Virus record (IMG/VR): IMGVR_UViG_3300044695_004891
Coordinates: 1-27,782 of that record
Reading direction: 5' to 3' (one strand)
Origin: a virus
Length of the DNA stretch: 27,782 bases
Shown here: positions 4,183-27,782 of the stretch, piece by piece
Layout of the letters: each line of letters starts with the position of its first letter
Numbering within the stretch: position 1 is the stretch's first letter
Notes under the pieces: generated by a model
Database searches by the model: none
What the model saw: the letters and a program-made list of their open reading frames with translations, nothing else
Told to the model about the DNA's origin: nothing
Position numbers and translations under genes: made by a program

Positions 4183-4202
4183 TTGCGTTTCCTACACAAG
4201 CT

Positions 4203-6517: not shown

Positions 6518-8742
6518 CACATCACCCCTGGAGGCATCGGCATGCCAGGCATCGCCAAGGGCGGCGCCGGCTGCACTGGCAGCTGATCAGGCAACGGCCC
6601 CTGGGCCGTGCCAAACATGGTCTTAAGCTCGTTGCGCTGCCGATCGACCTCGGCCTTGATCACGGCCATGTCGACCTGCGCGCCATACTTGGCTTGGATC
6701 TCGGCCGCCTTGAGCAGCGCGTCGACGTAAAGCTTGTCGCGCTCGAGATCCGCGTCGGCCGCGGCCTTCTGGCGCTCGAGCTCCTGCTTGGCCGCGTTAA
6801 TCAGGATGTCCGCCTTGACCTTCTCGGCCTCGACCTGGGCCAGCAGCGTCGCCGGATCAGGCTTGTTCGCCCCCTGCGACATCTGCTGCATGAAGGCCTG
6901 CACCTCCTCGGGCTGGATCTCCTTCCAAAATGCACTTGGGTCTTGGAAGCCAGCCAATTGCGTTACCTGCGCAAGCGCACCGCGCAATTGAACCAGGTCG
7001 ACGAGGGGGTTGTACGGCCCGTAGGTCTGGATGACCTCCTTCTGCTGGCCAATGATCTGCGTCAGGAAGGCCATGCGCTGCTCGTCTGAGCCACGGCCCA
7101 GCGCGATGTTCACGATCATGTCCATGCCGGCGTCCCAGCCCCGCGGGTCGATCGGCACGAACTTATTACGCAGGCGGATGATCTTGGCCTTGTCCTGGTG
7201 CCGCACGACCAGGCCCAGGAGGCCCTGGAAGCACCGCTTCAGCCCATCGGCAAAGAGGCGCGCGATCATCTCTATGCGCTCCTGGGAGCTCGACAGCTGG
7301 GCTTGGACGGCCGCGCGGGTAGTGGACTGCAGCACGTCGGCATCAAGGCCCTGGGAGGCCCTAGAAATGCCCGTGCGCTGGGTCTTAACCTCGTCCAGAT
7401 AGGCCATGACGCCGAGGGCCTGCTGGCCCACGAAAGGCTCGGCCAGCGGCTGCACCATGCCAGGCGCGCGGGCGCGGATGATCGCCCCGGTCTCGACGTT
7501 CATCACGTCGGCCATGTTCACCTGGTTCTCGACCACCACCGTGCGGGGGTGGATGGACTGCGCCAGGCTGTCCAGCGTGTTCCGCATGATCGAAGATTTG
7601 ATCATCTGCAGATCCATTGTCTGGTCTGCGATCGACTGCCCAAAGATCGTGTGCGGCGTCGGATCCGGCGCCAGGATGGCAAAAGGCACCTTCTGCACCA
7701 CCTCGCTGTGCAGGATGTAGGAGCCATTGCCCACGCTGCAGACCTTGTGCAGCTCGGCAATGCCGTCCCCATCGCGGTCGGCGCGGATGTAGCTCTCGAC
7801 GTAGAAGACCTTGTCGGTCGTCTCGTCAGTGGTCTGCGTGATGCCAAAGAAGCTCTGGTCCGCCGGGTTGCGGATCAGCACCTCGTTGTTCATGTCGAAG
7901 CCGCCTGTGCCGGCGTTCTGCTCGATCACGTCGCGCGGGTAGCCCATGGCCACCAGCTCGGAGATCGTCGCCAGCTTGCGCCGGCCGACATAGATCGCGT
8001 CGTCGAGGCTGGTCGCCTCGTTATCGATGAGGAACTGCTCGGGCGGGATGCACTCAACCACATAGCGCGGATTGCGCTTCACGCGGCGGATGCGCAGATC
8101 AGTCTTGGCCTCGCCGGTGGTCATGTCGACCACCTCGGTCAGGCTCTCGACCTCGACCTCGGGATCCGACGTCAGAAGGGCGATTTCCTCCGGCAGAAGG
8201 CCTGAGTAGTCGTAATACTCGACCGCCTCCTCGTCGACCTTGTACCAGGTGAGCACGCCGGTCTTGCAGATCAGCGCGTCTTTCATCGCGTCGTGCAGGA
8301 TGCGGAAGCCGGGGTTCTCCTGCATGAAGACGTAATTGATCAGGTCGGTGGCCTGCTCCGCGGCCGCAATATCCTCGGCCCCCTTCGGCACAAACTCGAT
8401 CACCTTGTCGCCGCCGGTGAAGATCCGCAACAGCGAAGGCAGCATGGCCAGGACAGTGTCCCGCACCTCGGTCAGGATGACCTGGCTGCGCCCCTCTTCC
8501 TCGTTCCCCAGAGGGTCGCCCAGGTAGTAGGCCATCGCAGCTTCGCGCTCAGGCGCGAGATAGCTGTCGATGTAGGTCTGGCTGTCGGTAATCGCCTGGA
8601 AGACGATGTAGCGGAACTCCTCGTCATCCATCGGCTCGTTCTGCGGCAGCATGTAGCCGGTGGCGTCGTTGTAGACGTCACTGCCCACGGGCAGATTTAC
8701 GACATCGGGGTCATACCGGCCTGGTGTAATGCCTTGAGCCAT
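6517..8742 (-). CDS. portal protein (SU10-like podovirus type)
   Basis: 741 residues. The dodecameric portal is the DNA channel at the capsid vertex and docks the terminase. Residues include YIVFQAITDSQTYIDSYLAP near the start, FVPKGAEDIAAAEQATDLIN, GVLTWYKVDEE, and PDPTPHTIFGQSIADQTMDLQ in the middle, all characteristic of SU10/podoviral portals. The C-terminus (about 640-741) is a long Gln/Ala/Lys coiled coil ending in a Pro/Met-rich tail, as in portal barrels. I chose ATG at 8742 because AGAAGG lies nine bases ahead. Starting at 8766 would add eight basic residues and overlap the methyltransferase gene further. Confidence 0.93.
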   Translation of the reverse strand: MAQGITPGRYDPDVVNLPVGSDVYNDATGYMLPQNEPMDDEEFRYIVFQAITDSQTYIDSYLAPEREAAMAYYLGDPLGNEEEGRSQVILTEVRDTVLAMLPSLLRIFTGGDKVIEFVPKGAEDIAAAEQATDLINYVFMQENPGFRILHDAMKDALICKTGVLTWYKVDEEAVEYYDYSGLLPEEIALLTSDPEVEVESLTEVVDMTTGEAKTDLRIRRVKRNPRYVVECIPPEQFLIDNEATSLDDAIYVGRRKLATISELVAMGYPRDVIEQNAGTGGFDMNNEVLIRNPADQSFFGITQTTDETTDKVFYVESYIRADRDGDGIAELHKVCSVGNGSYILHSEVVQKVPFAILAPDPTPHTIFGQSIADQTMDLQMIKSSIMRNTLDSLAQSIHPRTVVVENQVNMADVMNVETGAIIRARAPGMVQPLAEPFVGQQALGVMAYLDEVKTQRTGISRASQGLDADVLQSTTRAAVQAQLSSSQERIEMIARLFADGLKRCFQGLLGLVVRHQDKAKIIRLRNKFVPIDPRGWDAGMDMIVNIALGRGSDEQRMAFLTQIIGQQKEVIQTYGPYNPLVDLVQLRGALAQVTQLAGFQDPSAFWKEIQPEEVQAFMQQMSQGANKPDPATLLAQVEAEKVKADILINAAKQELERQKAAADADLERDKLYVDALLKAAEIQAKYGAQVDMAVIKAEVDRQRNELKTMFGTAQGPLPDQLPVQPAPPLAMPGMPMPPGVM

Positions 8743-12334: not shown

Positions 12335-12493
12335 TCACTTACCCTTCTTGCGCGCAGCACGAATATTGTCGACAGCGTTCGGATAAGGCCGACCCGCCTT
12401 CGCCGCCATCGCCTTCGCCGCTGCCTTCCGGCCAGGCGAAAGCTTCTTGTCACCCTTCGTCGGATCAGGCGTCCGCCACACAGGCTTCTTCAT
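12335..12493 (-). CDS. tiny basic protein in the packaging operon
   Basis: 52 residues, very Lys/Arg/Ala-rich: it opens MKKPVWRTPDPTKGDKKLSP, continues GRKAAAKAMAAKAGRPYPN, and ends in RAARKKGK. I recognise no named domain. Its ATG overlaps the TGA of the 12490-12789 gene (ATGA), and its own stop is one base before the next ATG, so it fits the operon exactly. Its composition suggests nucleic-acid binding or packaging with DNA. It shares the MK-x-P-x-W opening with its upstream neighbour. Confidence 0.75.
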   Translation of the reverse strand: MKKPVWRTPDPTKGDKKLSPGRKAAAKAMAAKAGRPYPNAVDNIRAARKKGK

Positions 12494-12789
12494 TTCACCT
12501 TGCCCTTGTTCCGCGCCGAAATAGCCTTAGCCTTCGACCGCGCATCTGCCTTACTCGACGCACCCCAAGCCCGCAAAGACAAAAGGAGCCGCGTCGGCTC
12601 CCCATCCTTAAACTCAGGCCCCGGCATGTTCCCCATACGCGCCAAAAACGACGCACGACGCGGGTTGTCGCCGCTCTTCACAGGGGGCTTCAAATCCATG
12701 CCCTGAGCACGCGCAGAAGCACGCCCCTTCGCATTCAAGCCACCACTCGGGCTCTTACCCTCAGCACGCTGCCAAGCCGGCGTCTTCAT
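12490..12789 (-). CDS. small basic protein, DUF6321-like
   Basis: 99 residues, basic. The segment AWQRAEGKSPSGGLNAKGRA near the N-terminus, and later FLARMGNMPGPEFKDGEPTR with LLSLRAWGASSKADA, match the DUF6321 type of phage/bacterial small proteins. No catalytic residues are obvious. It is the first gene of the operon that runs through the packaging and virion genes. Upstream lies a 59-bp gap holding one of the CTTGCG-N7-CGCAAG palindromes. It probably binds DNA or joins the virion; that is inference. Confidence 0.78.
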   Translation of the reverse strand: MKTPAWQRAEGKSPSGGLNAKGRASARAQGMDLKPPVKSGDNPRRASFLARMGNMPGPEFKDGEPTRLLLSLRAWGASSKADARSKAKAISARNKGKVK

Positions 12790-12816: not shown

Positions 12817-12846
12817 AACCTAATCACCTTGCGCACAGAACGCAAG
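12817..12846 (-). promoter_or_regulatory. palindromic operator and putative promoter of the 12789 operon (site D)
   Basis: CTTGCG (12828-12833) and CGCAAG (12841-12846) form a perfect 6-bp inverted repeat with a 7-bp spacer. On the minus strand TTGCGT (12845-12840) can act as -35, with TAGGTT (12822-12817) 17 bp on as a weak -10. The same palindrome stands before three other transcription units. It occupies the only sizeable gap between terminase and the gene at 12789. Confidence 0.6.
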
Positions 12847-19560: not shown

Positions 19561-19730
19561 TTCGGCGCCTCCGGCAGTGGCATCCAGTGCGTGGGCTTGA
19601 GCGTGTGATCGCCGTTGCTCCAGCTGAGGCTGAGGACGTTCCAGTAGGCGACGTCGGCAAAGCCGGCCTTGTCCCATACGAGCACTTCGGTGCCGTCTAC
19701 GGGCGCGGTTCCGATCGGGCGCCAGGTCAT
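19557..19730 (-). CDS. DUF551 small protein, first copy
   Basis: 57 residues, MTWRPIGTAPVDGTEVLVWD at the start and THWMPLPEAPK at the end, with Trp residues spaced as in DUF551. No catalytic residues stand out; the family is small, beta-rich and of unknown function. ATG at 19730 overlaps the HTH gene's TGA (ATGA). It is followed directly by a second, diverged DUF551 gene, so the pair probably arose by tandem duplication. Confidence 0.8.
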   Translation of the reverse strand: MTWRPIGTAPVDGTEVLVWDKAGFADVAYWNVLSLSWSNGDHTLKPTHWMPLPEAPK

Positions 19731-19948
19731 GCTTTCTTGCCCTTTGCGATCTTGAGCGTCAGCCCGAGGACGTTGCAGTAGCGCAGCGCGGCCCTGAGGC
19801 TCACGTCGGTTCCTCTCGCCGCGGCGTACCAGTAGGTGGAATGAGAAAGGCCTGCCCTTTTGCATAGGTCTCTCTGCGTTATGCCCAAGGCCGTGCGCCG
19901 CTCCTCGAGAGCGGCGAACAGCTGCTGGGGGTTGTCGATGCTTGGCAT
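19727..19948 (-). CDS. Cro/C1-type HTH regulator
   Basis: 73 residues. The HTH spans about 20-60: ALGITQRDLCKRAGLSHSTY, then YAAARGTDVSLRAALRYCNV. It is one DNA-binding domain with a short Lys-rich tail, so it probably acts as a dimer, like Cro. AAGGA is six bases before the ATG. A perfect CTTGCG-N7-CGCAAG palindrome at 19980-19998 covers its putative -35, so autoregulation is likely. The same palindrome precedes the integrase, early and packaging operons, making this protein a good candidate for the shared regulator. Confidence 0.85.
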   Translation of the reverse strand: MPSIDNPQQLFAALEERRTALGITQRDLCKRAGLSHSTYWYAAARGTDVSLRAALRYCNVLGLTLKIAKGKKA

Positions 19949-19968: not shown

Positions 19969-19998
19969 GACATAACCGCCTTGCGTTTTAGGCGCAAG
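19969..19998 (-). promoter_or_regulatory. palindromic operator and promoter of the HTH/replication operon (site A)
   Basis: CTTGCG (19980-19985) and CGCAAG (19993-19998) form an inverted repeat with 7-bp spacer; one more base pair extends it outward. On the minus strand TTGCGC (19997-19992) is a possible -35 and TATGTC (19974-19969) a possible -10, 17 bp apart. The transcript would begin just ahead of the HTH gene's ribosome site. Confidence 0.65.
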
Positions 19999-21084: not shown

Positions 21085-21203
21085 AGTGGGTTTTTGTGCG
21101 CGAATTGGGCATCTTGGGATCTAAGTACTATCCCGTGCAAGGGCGTGCGGTGAAAAGAGGCACATTGCGATAAGATCGCGCGCAAATTGCGCTGGATGCA
21201 CAA
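21085..21203. promoter_or_regulatory. divergent immunity control region
   Basis: This 119-bp gap separates the minus excisionase-like gene from the plus HTH repressor-like gene. GGGAT (21116-21120) and ATCCC (21130-21134) form an inverted repeat with 9-bp spacer, centred on AGTACT. Nearer the plus gene, three half-sites of the phage palindrome cluster with odd spacing: TTGCG at 21165 and 21187 and CGCAA at 21181. TACTAT (21126-21131) could be a plus -10. Promoters here are not certain. Confidence 0.55.
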
Positions 21204-21632
21204 ATGAGCACGACTAGAAAACACGACAAAAACCACTGGGTGCGCGAAGGGCTGACTGCCAAGGGCTACACGCAGCGCGACCTGGCGCGCGCTTGGGGCG
21301 TGGCGGAGCCTTCCGTGTCGCGCTTCATCTCAGGCGAAGAAGGATCGGATCCGCCCCTATCTCGCGCCGTGACCCTAGCGGTAATGCTGGGGATTACTCT
21401 GGAAGAGGTAGCGCGGGGCTTAGGCTTAAGAGGTAGACGGGTCGAGCCTGTGGTGACGCAGGAGGCTGGCGTGCCTCCTGTTGGCACGTTCCGCATGGAC
21501 GTGCTGGGCGAGGGGCGCGTGCGTGTTGTGCTGGTGCAGGACGTCGCGCCCGATGTTGCGTCGCAGCTGATCTCAGTCCTGGGCGGCTCGAGTGACAGTG
21601 GGCGCGTCCGTGACCGTAAGGCGCGCGCGTAG
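21204..21632 (+). CDS. HTH repressor-like protein (candidate lysogeny repressor)
   Basis: 142 residues. The N-terminal HTH runs through LTAKGYTQRDLARAWGVAEP and SVSRFISGEEGSDPPLSRAV (about 17-60). The C-terminus (about 80-142) has VGTFRMDVLGEGRVRVVLVQ, then a basic end. It is too short for, and lacks, a LexA/CI-type Ser-Lys autoprotease domain, so induction would need another route. Plus orientation, opposite to the excisionase-like gene, is the usual repressor position. Its last 60 bp overlap the 3' end of the minus early operon tail to tail, so strong early transcription could interfere with its expression. Confidence 0.8.
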   Translation: MSTTRKHDKNHWVREGLTAKGYTQRDLARAWGVAEPSVSRFISGEEGSDPPLSRAVTLAVMLGITLEEVARGLGLRGRRVEPVVTQEAGVPPVGTFRMDVLGEGRVRVVLVQDVAPDVASQLISVLGGSSDSGRVRDRKARA

Positions 21633-22042: not shown

Positions 22043-22332
22043 TGCTTTTCTCCTGCTTCGACGCGGTCTCTTTCAGCGTCGAGGATTGAGTTGATGAACT
22101 CTTCGTGCTTGAGCCCTTCCAGGAATAGGACACCTTCGTATCCCCAGATAGAAGCGGCCCACTCGCAAATAGCCGCGCGTAGCTTTTCGATTTCCGCATC
22201 CCGTTCGGCTACGGCCTTCAGCTGCCACGTCCCATCCGGTAATTGCACCACCGGCCATTCTGCCGGCACCACACCACTGCCGCGCGTAACGTGCGCGCTG
22301 CGTTCAGCGGCGGCATTTGACTGGTCAGTCAT
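22039..22332 (-). CDS. hypothetical early phage protein
   Basis: 97 residues. VVQLPDGTWQLKAVAERDAE forms a short beta segment leading into a helix, then CEWAASIWGYEGVLFLEGLK and a charged helical end. No family recognised. ATG at 22332 overlaps the HigA stop (ATGA), with GGGAG seven bases ahead inside HigA's last codons. Its own C-terminus ends AGEKQ, a diverged copy of the same junction cassette. It sits in the early operon just after the toxin-antitoxin pair. Confidence 0.7.
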   Translation of the reverse strand: MTDQSNAAAERSAHVTRGSGVVPAEWPVVQLPDGTWQLKAVAERDAEIEKLRAAICEWAASIWGYEGVLFLEGLKHEEFINSILDAERDRVEAGEKQ

Positions 22333-22592
22333 TCCTTTTCTCCCAGCGCCGCGCGATACTGCGCCTCCCTCCGGAGCCAGAACCCAGTGGTCGAACCGAG
22401 CACAGTAGCCAGACGCTCTGCTGCGTCCGGCGTCATGGTCGAACGGCCCTGGATCAGGTCGTTGACGTGCTTGCGCGTGAAGCCCAGCCGATCTGCCAGC
22501 TCCGCCTGCGTCCAACCGCGCTCGTCGAGGACATCGGCGATGGTCTCACCAGGAGGGGAGACCCAATCTAGGGCGAAGGCGGTCTCAGTCAT
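22329..22592 (-). CDS. higA: HigA-family antitoxin
   Basis: 87 residues. SPPGETIADVLDERGWTQAE is the HigA/VapI signature opening, followed by an XRE-type HTH (LADRLGFTRKHVNDLIQGRS) and LGSTTGFWLRREAQYRAAL, the usual end. HigA binds HigB and represses their promoter. Its gene follows the toxin gene, the usual higBA order, overlapping it by 8 bp. The start at 22592 gives the family N-terminus; longer versions are spurious. The C-terminal AALGEKE is shared with the 21824-22042 gene. Confidence 0.9.
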   Translation of the reverse strand: MTETAFALDWVSPPGETIADVLDERGWTQAELADRLGFTRKHVNDLIQGRSTMTPDAAERLATVLGSTTGFWLRREAQYRAALGEKE

Positions 22593-22905
22593 GGTAATCC
22601 CCAATAAACACGATCTCGATTGCAGTGACCCGTTTCCAATCAGCGCCGGTTGTCGACGCTTCCTGACGTGCCGCCCGGAAGACCAAACGCTGTCCACCAG
22701 CCAGGTCCAGCGCGAACTGACCCGCGCGGGACCCGCTCAGTGGATGCGGCCGGCCCGCGACCAACTCAGCCACCGTATCGGCGGCCTGGAGATCCGCGAG
22801 GCGGGACCGAAGCTTCCGAGCGCTGTCGGCCCCGAGCGCCTTGGTGGCCCCACGGGGGTCCGCGCAGAGCTTAGCAAGCTTCTTCGAGGCGAAAGATATA
22901 TCCAC
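22585..22905 (-). CDS. higB: HigB-family toxin (RelE superfamily mRNA interferase)
   Basis: 106 residues starting at GTG 22905; an in-frame stop two codons upstream excludes a longer form. ISFASKKLAKLCADP at the start, SARKLRSRLADLQAADT in the middle and AGQFALDLAGGQRLVF near residue 65 are the HigB family pattern. HigB cuts mRNA on the ribosome until neutralised by HigA. No clear ribosome site is seen. A 57-bp gap upstream contains TGATG...CATCA inverted repeats that may be the HigA operator, so the pair may have its own promoter inside the early operon. Confidence 0.87.
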   Translation of the reverse strand: MDISFASKKLAKLCADPRGATKALGADSARKLRSRLADLQAADTVAELVAGRPHPLSGSRAGQFALDLAGGQRLVFRAARQEASTTGADWKRVTAIEIVFIGDYHD

Positions 22906-23943: not shown

Positions 23944-24243
23944 TTAAGCTTGAACTTGTGACGCTGCGCCAGAGGCGACGTCGAAACCGGCCCTGGTGAG
24001 CCACACAGCCTCCCCGTCTGATCCGACAAGACCAGCCTGCACGGCCGAGGAGACCAAGCCGGAAAGCGCCTTGCCGGAAGGCAGGTTCACGCGCTCGGAC
24101 GTGCAATCCAGGCAATCGCTCCAGACCTGGAAATTGGACTGAACGAACTCAACACCGCTGGGTGGGCGACCGTTGAAGGCGTTGTAGTCATTGGCGAAGA
24201 TCGCCTTGCAGAGGTTGATCTGGTTGTCGGTCGGCATTTGCAT
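23944..24243 (-). CDS. first gene of the early operon, hypothetical
   Basis: About 99 residues. From MPTDNQINLCKAIFANDYNA it continues with GVEFVQSNFQVWSDCLDC, then ALSGLVSSAVQAGLVGSDGE and AVWLTRAGFDVA. The second half resembles a small winged-helix-like fold, but no family is recognised. Three in-frame ATGs (24249, 24243, 24237) are close. 24243 has AAGGGAG eight bases ahead, and 24237 has GGAG six bases ahead, so both may be used. It lies just downstream of palindrome B and is probably the first product of the early promoter. Confidence 0.68.
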   Translation of the reverse strand: MQMPTDNQINLCKAIFANDYNAFNGRPPSGVEFVQSNFQVWSDCLDCTSERVNLPSGKALSGLVSSAVQAGLVGSDGEAVWLTRAGFDVASGAASQVQA

Positions 24244-24282
24244 CTCCATTGCTCCCTTCGCCCCGATCGGCGTCGGTCTCAT

Positions 24283-24313
24283 CTTGTAGACCGCCTTACG
24301 GGCTAGACGCAAG
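24283..24313 (-). promoter_or_regulatory. palindromic operator and promoter of the early operon (site B)
   Basis: CTTACG (24295-24300) and CGCAAG (24308-24313) form the phage palindrome with one mismatch and a 7-bp spacer GGCTAGA. On the minus strand TTGCGT (24312-24307) could be -35, with TACAAG (24288-24283) 18 bp on as -10. It shares 18 of 20 bases with site C, in the same orientation, across the core 24294-24313. Confidence 0.65.
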
Positions 24314-24371
24314 ACAGAAAATACGCCCTGCGAAAAAAGATTATCGCCCCGACGAAAGGCCAGGAAAGCGC

Positions 24372-24401
24372 CTTGCGCGCTAGACGCAATCCCACTATTG
24401 T
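24372..24401 (+). promoter_or_regulatory. palindromic operator and integrase promoter (site C)
   Basis: CTTGCG (24372-24377) and CGCAAT (24385-24390) give the same palindrome with spacer CGCTAGA. On the plus strand TTGCGC (24373-24378) is a possible -35 and TATTGT (24396-24401) a good -10, exactly 17 bp apart. The integrase ATG at 24429 follows 28 bases later. A repressor bound here would block RNA polymerase at the -35. Confidence 0.7.
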
Positions 24402-24428
24402 GCGGGGTACAAACCAATGGAGATGGCA

Positions 24429-25508
24429 ATGAAGGTGACCAAATTTGAGCGTTCCCCTGGCGTCTGGCGGATCCGCATCGAGACCAAGGACGAGGCCGGG
24501 CAGCGCAAGTTTTCGACCGAAACGCTGAAGGGATCAGAGATCGACGCGGAAGCGCGGCGCATCGAGATCCTCAAGGGCCACCGCGCCGGCGACCTGGTGC
24601 AGGTGACGGACGACACCGTGAAGCAGCACTGGACCCGCTGGCAGGCCAAGCGCGTCGCACTGAAGGCGATCTCGGAGCTCACGGCCCAGGGCCAGGCGGT
24701 GCTGATGGCCCCCTTCCTGCGCGACTACGGCGGCCGCCCTCTTCGCTCCATCACGGGCGACGACATTGAGGCCTTCTACCTGGGCCGCATCCGCCAGGTC
24801 GCGCCCGGCACGATGACCGTCACGCACCACCACCTCAAGGCCCTGTTCAACCAGGCCGTCGAGGCCGGCGTGCTGACCAAGAACCCCATGAAGAAGGTGG
24901 CCGCGCCCAAGGGCGAGAGCGATCCCCGCAAGCCCCTGGAGAAGCGCCACATCAAGGCCCTGCTGGCCTACGCTGCCGACAAGCCCTTCCTGTCGCGCAT
25001 GCTCCGCCTGGCGCTGCACACTGGCATGCGCCGCGGCGAGATGTGCGCCCTTCGCTGGTCCGACGTCGACCTCGAGCTGGGCGTGATCAACGTCTCCCGC
25101 ACGATCGTGCGCATCGGCACGGTCGAGTACGAGAAGAAGCCCAAGACCAAGAAATCCATCCGCTCCATCCGCCTGCCCAAGGTTCTGCTCGAGGAGCTGC
25201 GCGAAGCTGCCCAGGCGCCCAACCGCCCGGTCCTGGTCACCAAGTGGGGCGATCGGCCCACCCTGTCCTACATGACCAGCGCCACCAAGGACGCCCTGCG
25301 CGCCATCGGCCTGGACGAGGGCTATTGCCTGCATTCCACCCGGCACAGTCACGCCACCCACCTGCTGCGCGAGAAACTGCCGCTGAAGGCGATCTCTGAG
25401 CGCCTGGGGCATGCCAACGTGGAGGTCACCCTGGCGGTCTACGCCGGCGTCCTGACCGGCGACGACCAGGCCCTGGCGGACAGCATTGAACGGGTAATGG
25501 CGGCCTGA
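24429..25508 (+). CDS. int: tyrosine-family phage integrase
   Basis: 359 residues. An Arg/Lys-rich N-terminal arm-binding region, then a SAM-like core-binding domain (about 60-160). The catalytic domain has HTGMRRGEMCALRW (Arg about 201), TKKSIRSI (Lys about 241), CLHSTRHSHATHLL (His 302, Arg 305), LGHANV (His 328) and AVYAGV (Tyr 338). All catalytic residues are present, so it should be active. It inserts the phage into, and with Xis removes it from, the chromosome. ATG at 24429 is preferred over 24417 because GGAG is six bases ahead. Repressible promoter at site C. Confidence 0.95.
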   Translation: MKVTKFERSPGVWRIRIETKDEAGQRKFSTETLKGSEIDAEARRIEILKGHRAGDLVQVTDDTVKQHWTRWQAKRVALKAISELTAQGQAVLMAPFLRDYGGRPLRSITGDDIEAFYLGRIRQVAPGTMTVTHHHLKALFNQAVEAGVLTKNPMKKVAAPKGESDPRKPLEKRHIKALLAYAADKPFLSRMLRLALHTGMRRGEMCALRWSDVDLELGVINVSRTIVRIGTVEYEKKPKTKKSIRSIRLPKVLLEELREAAQAPNRPVLVTKWGDRPTLSYMTSATKDALRAIGLDEGYCLHSTRHSHATHLLREKLPLKAISERLGHANVEVTLAVYAGVLTGDDQALADSIERVMAA

Positions 25509-25814: not shown

Positions 25815-27782
25815 TTACTGCGCGTCGGTCGCGCCCATGAGGGCCTGCAGGCCCAGCAGGCCTTGACGCTCCGGTGGGATCGGCCGGCCAAACCAAAGCT
25901 TAGACGAAACGTAGGGCAGGCCCAGGCCCACGGTGCCGGATATCAACGGATCAACCAGCCCCGCGGCGGCCGCACCACCCGCTCCTGCGCCCAAGCCGGC
26001 CGTAGTTGTGCCGCTGGTGCGCGCCCCGGTCAGCAGGTTCTGGGCGAAGCTGCGCTGCGCCGTCCCGCTGTTGGGCGTCGGGTTCGGAATGATCGCTTCC
26101 CCGGCGCGCACAAGGCGCGTGAAGGGGTCTTGCGCCATCCCATAGGCCTCCGGCCCCAGAGATGCCCTCTCGACCTGTGCAAGCGCGGTGGGCGGGATGA
26201 AGCCGGTGTTGAGCTTGTCCTTGCCGGTCGCGCTGCCCATGGCCTCCCTGACGCGGGAAAACAGTGCGTAGTCGCGATTGAGATCCTTCCACGCCTGGGC
26301 CAGGTTTGAGCCGCCAGCCTGCTGGCCGGCATTGCCTGCCATCTGCGTGCTGGGAAGGTTTCCGCCGGTGACCTGCAAGGCACGCCCGTCTGGCCCCGGC
26401 AAACGCGCTTGACCAGGCAGTAGTGGCTGATTGCCGGGCGCAGTGGCTTGAGCGCCACCAGCCGCCTGCGTGGGCGTCTGGGCGGCAGATCGCTCCATGA
26501 GCCCTTGGAAGCTGTCGCGCAGCCGGGCCATCGCCCTGCCGTATTCTTGGATCGCAGGATTGTCGCTGCGCTTGGCGCTGTCGGCCGCGAAGCGCAGCTC
26601 ACCGTCGATCACCCGATAGTTAGCGCCGGGCATCTCGGCGCCTTGAGCTCGAGCAGCGACGAACTCCTCGACGCGGCGCAGCTGACTGTCGAAGGCCCGA
26701 TAGAGCCCTTCATCCAGGCCGCGCGTGTACTGCGACCGCATGCCGCTCACCTGGTTGGCGAAGGTGTCGTCCGGGCGAAGCCTGGTCGCGGCCTCGAGCG
26801 CGTCTGCCTTCTGGCCCCATTGGCGCTGGTAGGCCGTGAGCACCTCCGGCGTGGCGATGTCGCTGTCCAGGCCGAATTGCCGATTAACCGCGCGCGTCCA
26901 GCCGCGCATGGTGTTGTCCTCAGCGCGCGCCACCGTAGGTGCGGACGTCGGAAGGTAACGCATCGCGCTCTCGAAGACCGACGCGCTGGGGTTGCCCAGC
27001 TGCTGCGCCGGCGTGAGAGGCACGTCGGCCTGGCGCAACACGTCGAGGTTCTCGACCCGCGGACCAGGGTTGCGCGCCGGGAAGACGTTCTGAGGGCGCA
27101 GCATCGGCGCCATAGGAACGGCCACACCACCAAGGACAGCAAGCGGCGCCGGGACGCCACCCTCGAGCAGCCCTTGCGTCACACCACCGGCCGTTGTCGC
27201 GGCCGCGGTTTGCGCGCCTGGTCCAGCCGCCAGGGTCTCGGCCACCGGCCGTCCGAATTGCGACGAGATCGGCAGCGCGTCTGCGATCGCGCGAGCCTGG
27301 CGCGCGCCCAGCATGGTCTCCACACCAGCCCGCGCGGCCGTGCTCGTCATGCGCTCCATCGCGCCTTCCGGCTGAGGCACGCCGGCGCGCGTCATGAGCT
27401 CGTCATAGGCCTGCGACGGCGTGCGCTGATTGCCACCCGTTGCTGCGTTCCAGGCGCTTACCGCCAGGTCAGAGACAGGCCGCGCTAGGCCTGCGGCCAC
27501 GCCGCCGGCGATCGCGCCAGGGATTGCGCCCACGCCACCGAAAGGAGCGCCCATGGCGGCCCCGGCAAGCATGCCCGCGCCAATGTCCCCAAAGGTTCGC
27601 AGACCCAACCCAGCGCCGCGCGCAAGGCCTTCCGTGGCGGTGCGCTGAGGCGGAGGCGCTGCAGGAATGGGCTTCCACTGCGTGCCGTCGTTGAAGATCT
27701 CCTCGCCTGTCTGTGGGTTCCTGGCGCGCTGCGCCGGCTTCCACTGACCGTCGTCTCCAACGACCAAGATCTCGCCGGTTTC
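25815..27782 (-). CDS. ejection/internal-virion-like protein, 5' truncated by window end
   Basis: At least 655 residues; the frame is open to the window edge, so the true start lies beyond 27782. The visible N-terminus has a repeated GD(D)GQWKPA/NDGTQWKPI motif. Glycine-zipper hydrophobic stretches follow at about 55-95 (AGMLAGAAMGAPFGGVGAIP) and again near 600-630. Central parts are helical and Gln/Ala/Arg-rich (about 235-420). Amphipathic glycine-zipper proteins of this size are typical podoviral ejection proteins that form a channel in the host membrane for DNA entry. Function is inferred from composition and position at the end of the late operon. Confidence 0.7.
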   Translation of the reverse strand, partial: ETGEILVVGDDGQWKPAQRARNPQTGEEIFNDGTQWKPIPAAPPPQRTATEGLARGAGLGLRTFGDIGAGMLAGAAMGAPFGGVGAIPGAIAGGVAAGLARPVSDLAVSAWNAATGGNQRTPSQAYDELMTRAGVPQPEGAMERMTSTAARAGVETMLGARQARAIADALPISSQFGRPVAETLAAGPGAQTAAATTAGGVTQGLLEGGVPAPLAVLGGVAVPMAPMLRPQNVFPARNPGPRVENLDVLRQADVPLTPAQQLGNPSASVFESAMRYLPTSAPTVARAEDNTMRGWTRAVNRQFGLDSDIATPEVLTAYQRQWGQKADALEAATRLRPDDTFANQVSGMRSQYTRGLDEGLYRAFDSQLRRVEEFVAARAQGAEMPGANYRVIDGELRFAADSAKRSDNPAIQEYGRAMARLRDSFQGLMERSAAQTPTQAAGGAQATAPGNQPLLPGQARLPGPDGRALQVTGGNLPSTQMAGNAGQQAGGSNLAQAWKDLNRDYALFSRVREAMGSATGKDKLNTGFIPPTALAQVERASLGPEAYGMAQDPFTRLVRAGEAIIPNPTPNSGTAQRSFAQNLLTGARTSGTTTAGLGAGAGGAAAAGLVDPLISGTVGLGLPYVSSKLWFGRPIPPERQGLLGLQALMGATDAQ

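Follow-up and report, generated by a model that had tools for sequence, protein, structure and literature searches.

A palindromic operator on the -35 boxes of four phage promoters and the 73-residue HipB/Cro-like protein that probably reads it

The window, by which we mean the whole 27,782-nucleotide stretch of viral DNA analysed (IMG/VR record IMGVR_UViG_3300044695_004891), contains an integrase gene and a leftward early operon that diverge from a shared intergenic region. Both promoters in this region carry a 17-bp palindrome with the half-site TTGCGYNY and a core that is mostly A/T. The palindrome is partly asymmetric, with a CTAG placed off centre. The region is laid out as follows:

24417 to 25508, + strand: tyrosine integrase (int; PHROG 1 integrase, E 1e-63)
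24396 to 24401, + strand: -10 of the int promoter, TATTGT, 17 bp past the -35; TATTGT, TATTCT or TATCCT stands at 17-18 bp in all aligned relatives
24373 to 24389, + strand: operator 1, TTGCGCGCTAGACGCAA, an exact palindrome; its first six bases, 24373-24378, form the -35 for int
24296 to 24312, - strand: operator 2, TTACGGGCTAGACGCAA, read on the - strand as TTGCGTCTAGCCCGTAA; one mismatch; -35 of the leftward early operon
24283 to 24289, - strand: CTACAA or TACAAG at the -10-like position of the early operon; the relatives L013 and L016 have TAGGTA
23944 to 24252, - strand: gene that opens the early operon transcribed from operator 2; it starts at about 24241-24252, by the ORF list and the sequence

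The int promoter reads TTGCGC-N17-TATTGT on the + strand, with operator 1 lying 27 bp ahead of the int ORF. On the - strand, the early promoter consists of TTGCGT followed by CTACAA at 17 bp or TACAAG at 18 bp. An earlier note had described two sites at these divergent promoters, and both sites are present with the promoter elements it assigned to them.

Exact copies of TTGCG-N7-CGCAA occur four times in the window (6958, 12829, 19981 and 24373), where dinucleotide shuffles give 0.08 on average. When one mismatch is allowed, seven copies are found where 1.9 are expected, an enrichment so mild that the one-mismatch copies prove little by themselves. We scored the window with a symmetric weight matrix trained on relatives' sites from outside the window's own subgroup, using 60 shuffles as control. 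The site at 19981 scored 24.4 bits, one training sequence being identical to it; the sites at 24373, 12829 and 24296 scored 23.9, 19.8 and 17.9 bits, and the largest score in the 60 shuffles was 16.9. All four matrix-supported sites lie outside genes, in a window of which only about 4.5% is intergenic. The earlier count of four exact copies is confirmed, but one of them drops out as an operator: the copy at 6958 lies within the portal gene, scores 5.9 bits, within the shuffle range, and is probably due to chance. The one-mismatch copies at 4183 (11.1 bits) and 21187 (8.1 bits) were likewise rejected as falling in the shuffle range. Across 11 phages, the spacing of TTGYG-Nk-CRCAA pairs peaks at k=7 in nearly all. 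In the papers searched, for this sequence and for similar operators of phages, no description turned up.

The two remaining operators extend the regulon beyond the int and early promoters of the earlier note. It also includes the promoter of a small helix-turn-helix (HTH) gene and a promoter behind the terminase gene:

19981 to 19997, - strand: operator 3, TTGCGCCTAAAACGCAA as read on that strand; 32 bp ahead of the 73-residue HTH gene
19727 to 19948, - strand: 73-residue XRE-family HTH protein (Pfam HTH_31/HTH_3), the proposed operator-binding, autoregulated repressor
12829 to 12845, - strand: operator 4, TTGCGTTCTGTGCGCAA as read on that strand; promoter after the terminase large subunit, TTGCGT-N17-TAGGTT
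12490 to 12789, - strand: DUF6321 protein (Pfam PF19846), the first gene past operator 4

All four sites follow a common design, in which the operator sits on a -35 of the form TTGCGY and a -10-like hexamer TANNNN usually follows at 17 bp. At operator 3, TTGCGC is followed by TTATGT/TATGTC at 17-19 bp.

The design is conserved among relatives, which we collected from IMG/VR as integrase homologues with 75-100% identity. A palindrome lies 44-46 bp ahead of the integrase match in 29 of the 29 relatives with upstream DNA. In most of the group with 75-79% Int identity, the operator faces the opposite way to int (TTGCGTCTAGCGCACAA); the -35 is nonetheless still occupied by a TTGCGY half-site. Counterparts of operator 2 are present in relative groups B and C. 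The second group (L007, L026 and L032) retains the int/early pair, its early copy being degenerate; in the third group, the early site is farther off, ahead of an operon of small genes, and in G015 it is an N5 variant. The promoter after the terminase gene recurs as TTGCGT-N17-TAGGTT in G018, as TTGCGT-N17-TATTTT in G020, G010 and G006, and as TTGTGT-N17-TATTAT in MW202496; the first gene downstream of it varies. The operator/-35 design is thus shared by four different promoters. Among 40 distinct promoters of the four kinds, 95% have a TA at a spacing of 16-18, compared with 16% in shuffles, although these figures overstate independence because the promoters are related by descent. Loss of the motif from the same promoters in related phages had been named beforehand as the outcome that would speak against an operator shared by int and the divergent early operon at their -35 boxes. 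The motif is kept, and that proposal is supported.

The gene for the 73-residue protein travels with the sites. Relatives whose sequence takes in this region have its homologue together with the exonuclease gene, and 40 loci were fetched using an alignment of the protein. Of the orthologues with upstream DNA, all but L102 have the palindrome directly ahead of the gene; in L102 a methylase ORF separates the gene from its promoter, and the operator still heads the operon. The copy in L087 carries two mismatches, and those in L104 have diverged. The third group (group C) has two tandem operators ahead of the gene, 21 bp, or two helical turns, apart. A DNA-methylase-like ORF lies between the operator-promoter and the HTH gene in L027 (2874-3734, - strand), and a DnaA-box-like sequence, TTATCCACA, adjoins the tandem operators in several relatives (L025, L027 and L028).

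Overall identity of the 73-residue homologues between groups is about 30%, despite which the segment GLSH[SG][TA]YW is kept; by the HTH match, it falls on the recognition helix. Four HTH look-alikes (L109-L112) have neither the SHxxYW segment nor a good site. Two observations count against assigning the sites to this protein: MW202496 has a homologue with no obvious site ahead of its gene, and no homologue is detectable in the distant Microcystis phage MJing1, discussed below. A tblastn search with the group C homologue at E 1e-5 gave no match in the phage record collection. The AlphaFold model of the 73-residue protein (pLDDT 81) has HipB as its top match in the PDB (TM 0.74-0.80), with HipB-DNA structures matching best.

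HipB dimers bind TATCC-N8-GGATA at four cooperative operators and repress their own promoter (PMC3920265). The HipB proteins of hipBA in E. coli and Shewanella resemble the proposed system in being Cro-like HTH dimers of about 70 residues that recognize a palindrome with two 5-base arms; the several operators on HipB's own promoter and the resulting negative autoregulation offer a further, tentative parallel. In contrast, the arms here are TTGCG-N7-CGCAA and are found on phage promoters. In its model the 73-residue protein has the Cro-like HTH fold; its own promoter carries a palindrome, with no HipA next to the gene, and the HipA kinase domain (HipA_C) had no match in the window or in nine relatives. 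Since no HipA was found, we take the protein to share HipB's fold, and perhaps its working mode, and not to be part of a HipBA system.

Lambdoid Cro is likewise a tiny XRE protein whose gene belongs to the early set, with palindromic operators of 16-17 bp that overlap promoters, and 434 Cro is a weak sequence match to the 73-residue protein. Unlike Cro, the 73-residue protein shares no operator cluster with a CI; its operators are spread over four promoters including that of int, and in six relatives no CI-like partner was found. In phage P1, the C1 protein is a single repressor whose operators are dispersed over the genome; the window similarly has the same operator at four separate promoters. 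Such dispersed operators for a single repressor are also described for mycobacteriophages with L5-type stoperators (PMC9283540). P1 C1 and stoperator sites are asymmetric and the proteins unrelated, whereas the sites here are palindromic and placed on -35 boxes.

From these features we infer that the 73-residue HipB/Cro-like protein probably acts as a dimer that blocks the early, int, late and own promoters through the palindrome. A dimer would bind the 17-bp palindrome and cover about -36 to -20, the classical position of a repressor. Because one half-site, TTGCGY, is the -35 and the other lies in the spacer of about 17 bp, binding should exclude RNA polymerase. The protein would shut its own promoter in a negative feedback loop and would also shut int, the leftward early operon and the post-terminase promoter. 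Lytic transcription running from the exonuclease gene into the 73-residue gene may raise the level of the protein until the early, int and own promoters close, a Cro-like brake. In relatives that have no CI-like gene, the protein could itself be the lysogeny repressor.

Alternatively, the same protein might bind and, like lambda CII, activate, turning on int, early and late genes together. The -35 boxes match the consensus at only three of six positions, so that the promoters might need an activator, and the regulated set (int, the own gene and the late promoter) resembles that of an activator. Lambda CII binds direct repeats, TTGC-N6-TTGC, at the -35 of the int and repressor promoters, and the present system resembles it in carrying TTGC elements on the -35 boxes for int and a regulator gene. 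Here, in contrast, the repeats are inverted and spaced by N7. The second half-site falls inside a near-optimal spacer, and a protein bound there would ordinarily stop polymerase; the closest structure, HipB, is a repressor; and the CTAG asymmetry points one way at some promoters and the other way at others, as the site of a directional activator would not. Activation is therefore unlikely in our assessment.

A second HTH protein is encoded in the window, and the earlier note had named it beside the 73-residue protein as a candidate binder:

21204 to 21632, + strand: 142-residue XRE-family HTH protein (Pfam HTH_3), probably an immunity regulator; dispensable for the operator in relatives
21187 to 21203, + strand: TTGCGCTGGATGCACAA, just ahead of its start; at 8.1 bits a weak match at noise level, possibly this protein's own operator

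As a CI-like main binder, it could act alone or compete with the 73-residue protein for the same operators. Palindromes with TTGCG arms do stand just ahead of its gene in the window, in L007 and in MW202496; TTGCGCNNGATGCRCAA, similar to TTGCGCTGGATGCACAA, is found in L007, L008 and MW202496. These sites differ from the operator in their core, GATGCRCAA, and L025 and L027 have not kept them. In the promoter region of the 142-residue/AlpA/exonuclease switch (21085-21203), the matrix found only a weak, off-consensus match, and a palindrome with the operator's core is not conserved there among relatives; the control of lytic entry put forward in the earlier note thus stays a proposal. Profile searches of eight near-full-length relatives found the 73-residue protein in all eight and the 142-residue protein in only two. 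No 142-residue homologue was found in G006, G010, G015, G018, G020 or G021, all of which keep the sites; in G010, G015 and G021, the 73-residue protein is the only convincing XRE-family match. The 142-residue protein was accordingly rejected as sole binder, and because relatives keeping the sites are without it, the 73-residue protein is the likelier reader of the two candidates. A leading role for the 142-residue protein seems to us improbable.

Several further observations concern this region and its repressors. A TTGCG-N11-CGCAA element lies at 21165-21185, between the AlpA-like gene and the 142-residue HTH gene. In MW202496 (L071), an ORF homologous to the 142-residue protein (27338-27778, + strand) was missed by the deposited annotation, which has an antisense ORF instead; TTGCGCGAGATGCGCAA stands directly ahead of it. 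The S24 peptidase domain (PF00717) of CI/LexA-type repressors had no match in ten related records, and the 73- and 142-residue proteins match HTH families only. An apparent HigB-HigA type toxin-antitoxin pair, seen in near-identical records only, occupies 22329-22905 on the - strand: a 106-residue ORF, assigned by gene order and appearance since it has no Pfam match, followed by an 87-residue HTH_3 protein.

A case for the 142-residue protein comes from MJing1 (L072; GC 71%, Int 33%), which has palindromes and a 142-residue homologue but no 73-residue homologue. It contains eight palindromes with at most one mismatch, five of them intergenic, compared with 0.05 for arm-permuted controls. Copies lie at 1127, 1304, 4007, 12363, 13024, 28308 and 39818, mostly between genes, with SSB, polymerase and other genes following them. 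Its 142-residue homologue has a divergent region with two 15-bp N5 versions of the palindrome. Either a diverged protein binds the MJing1 sites, or the TTGCG arms are common to two XRE families, much as CI and Cro use the same operators.

That the element is read on the host side, by a transcription factor or as a variant type of promoter, might be suggested by its recurrence in MJing1 and in phages of differing GC content, but the constant association of the sites with a phage HTH gene, and the single match in one Limnohabitans genome (4.9 Mb; not known as a host), make this highly improbable. A search for Int homologues in bacterial genomes returned only a 25% relative.

The proposed repression by the 73-residue protein, judged from sequence comparisons and its predicted fold, gives a testable regulatory map for an uncharacterised group of temperate phages: one operator, one candidate protein and four promoters. 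A bolder proposal, which we advance with considerable doubt, is that this freshwater phage group runs its life cycle on a single 73-residue HipB-like protein without a CI-type partner, its operator fused to the int, early, late and own -35 boxes, and that the protein reading the palindrome in MJing1 is unrelated or much diverged, so that operator identity would have outlived the regulator. If the 73-residue protein alone sets lysogeny in relatives that have no CI-like gene, it would rank among the smallest master regulators of phages and could be used, with its operator, as a compact repressor-operator pair.
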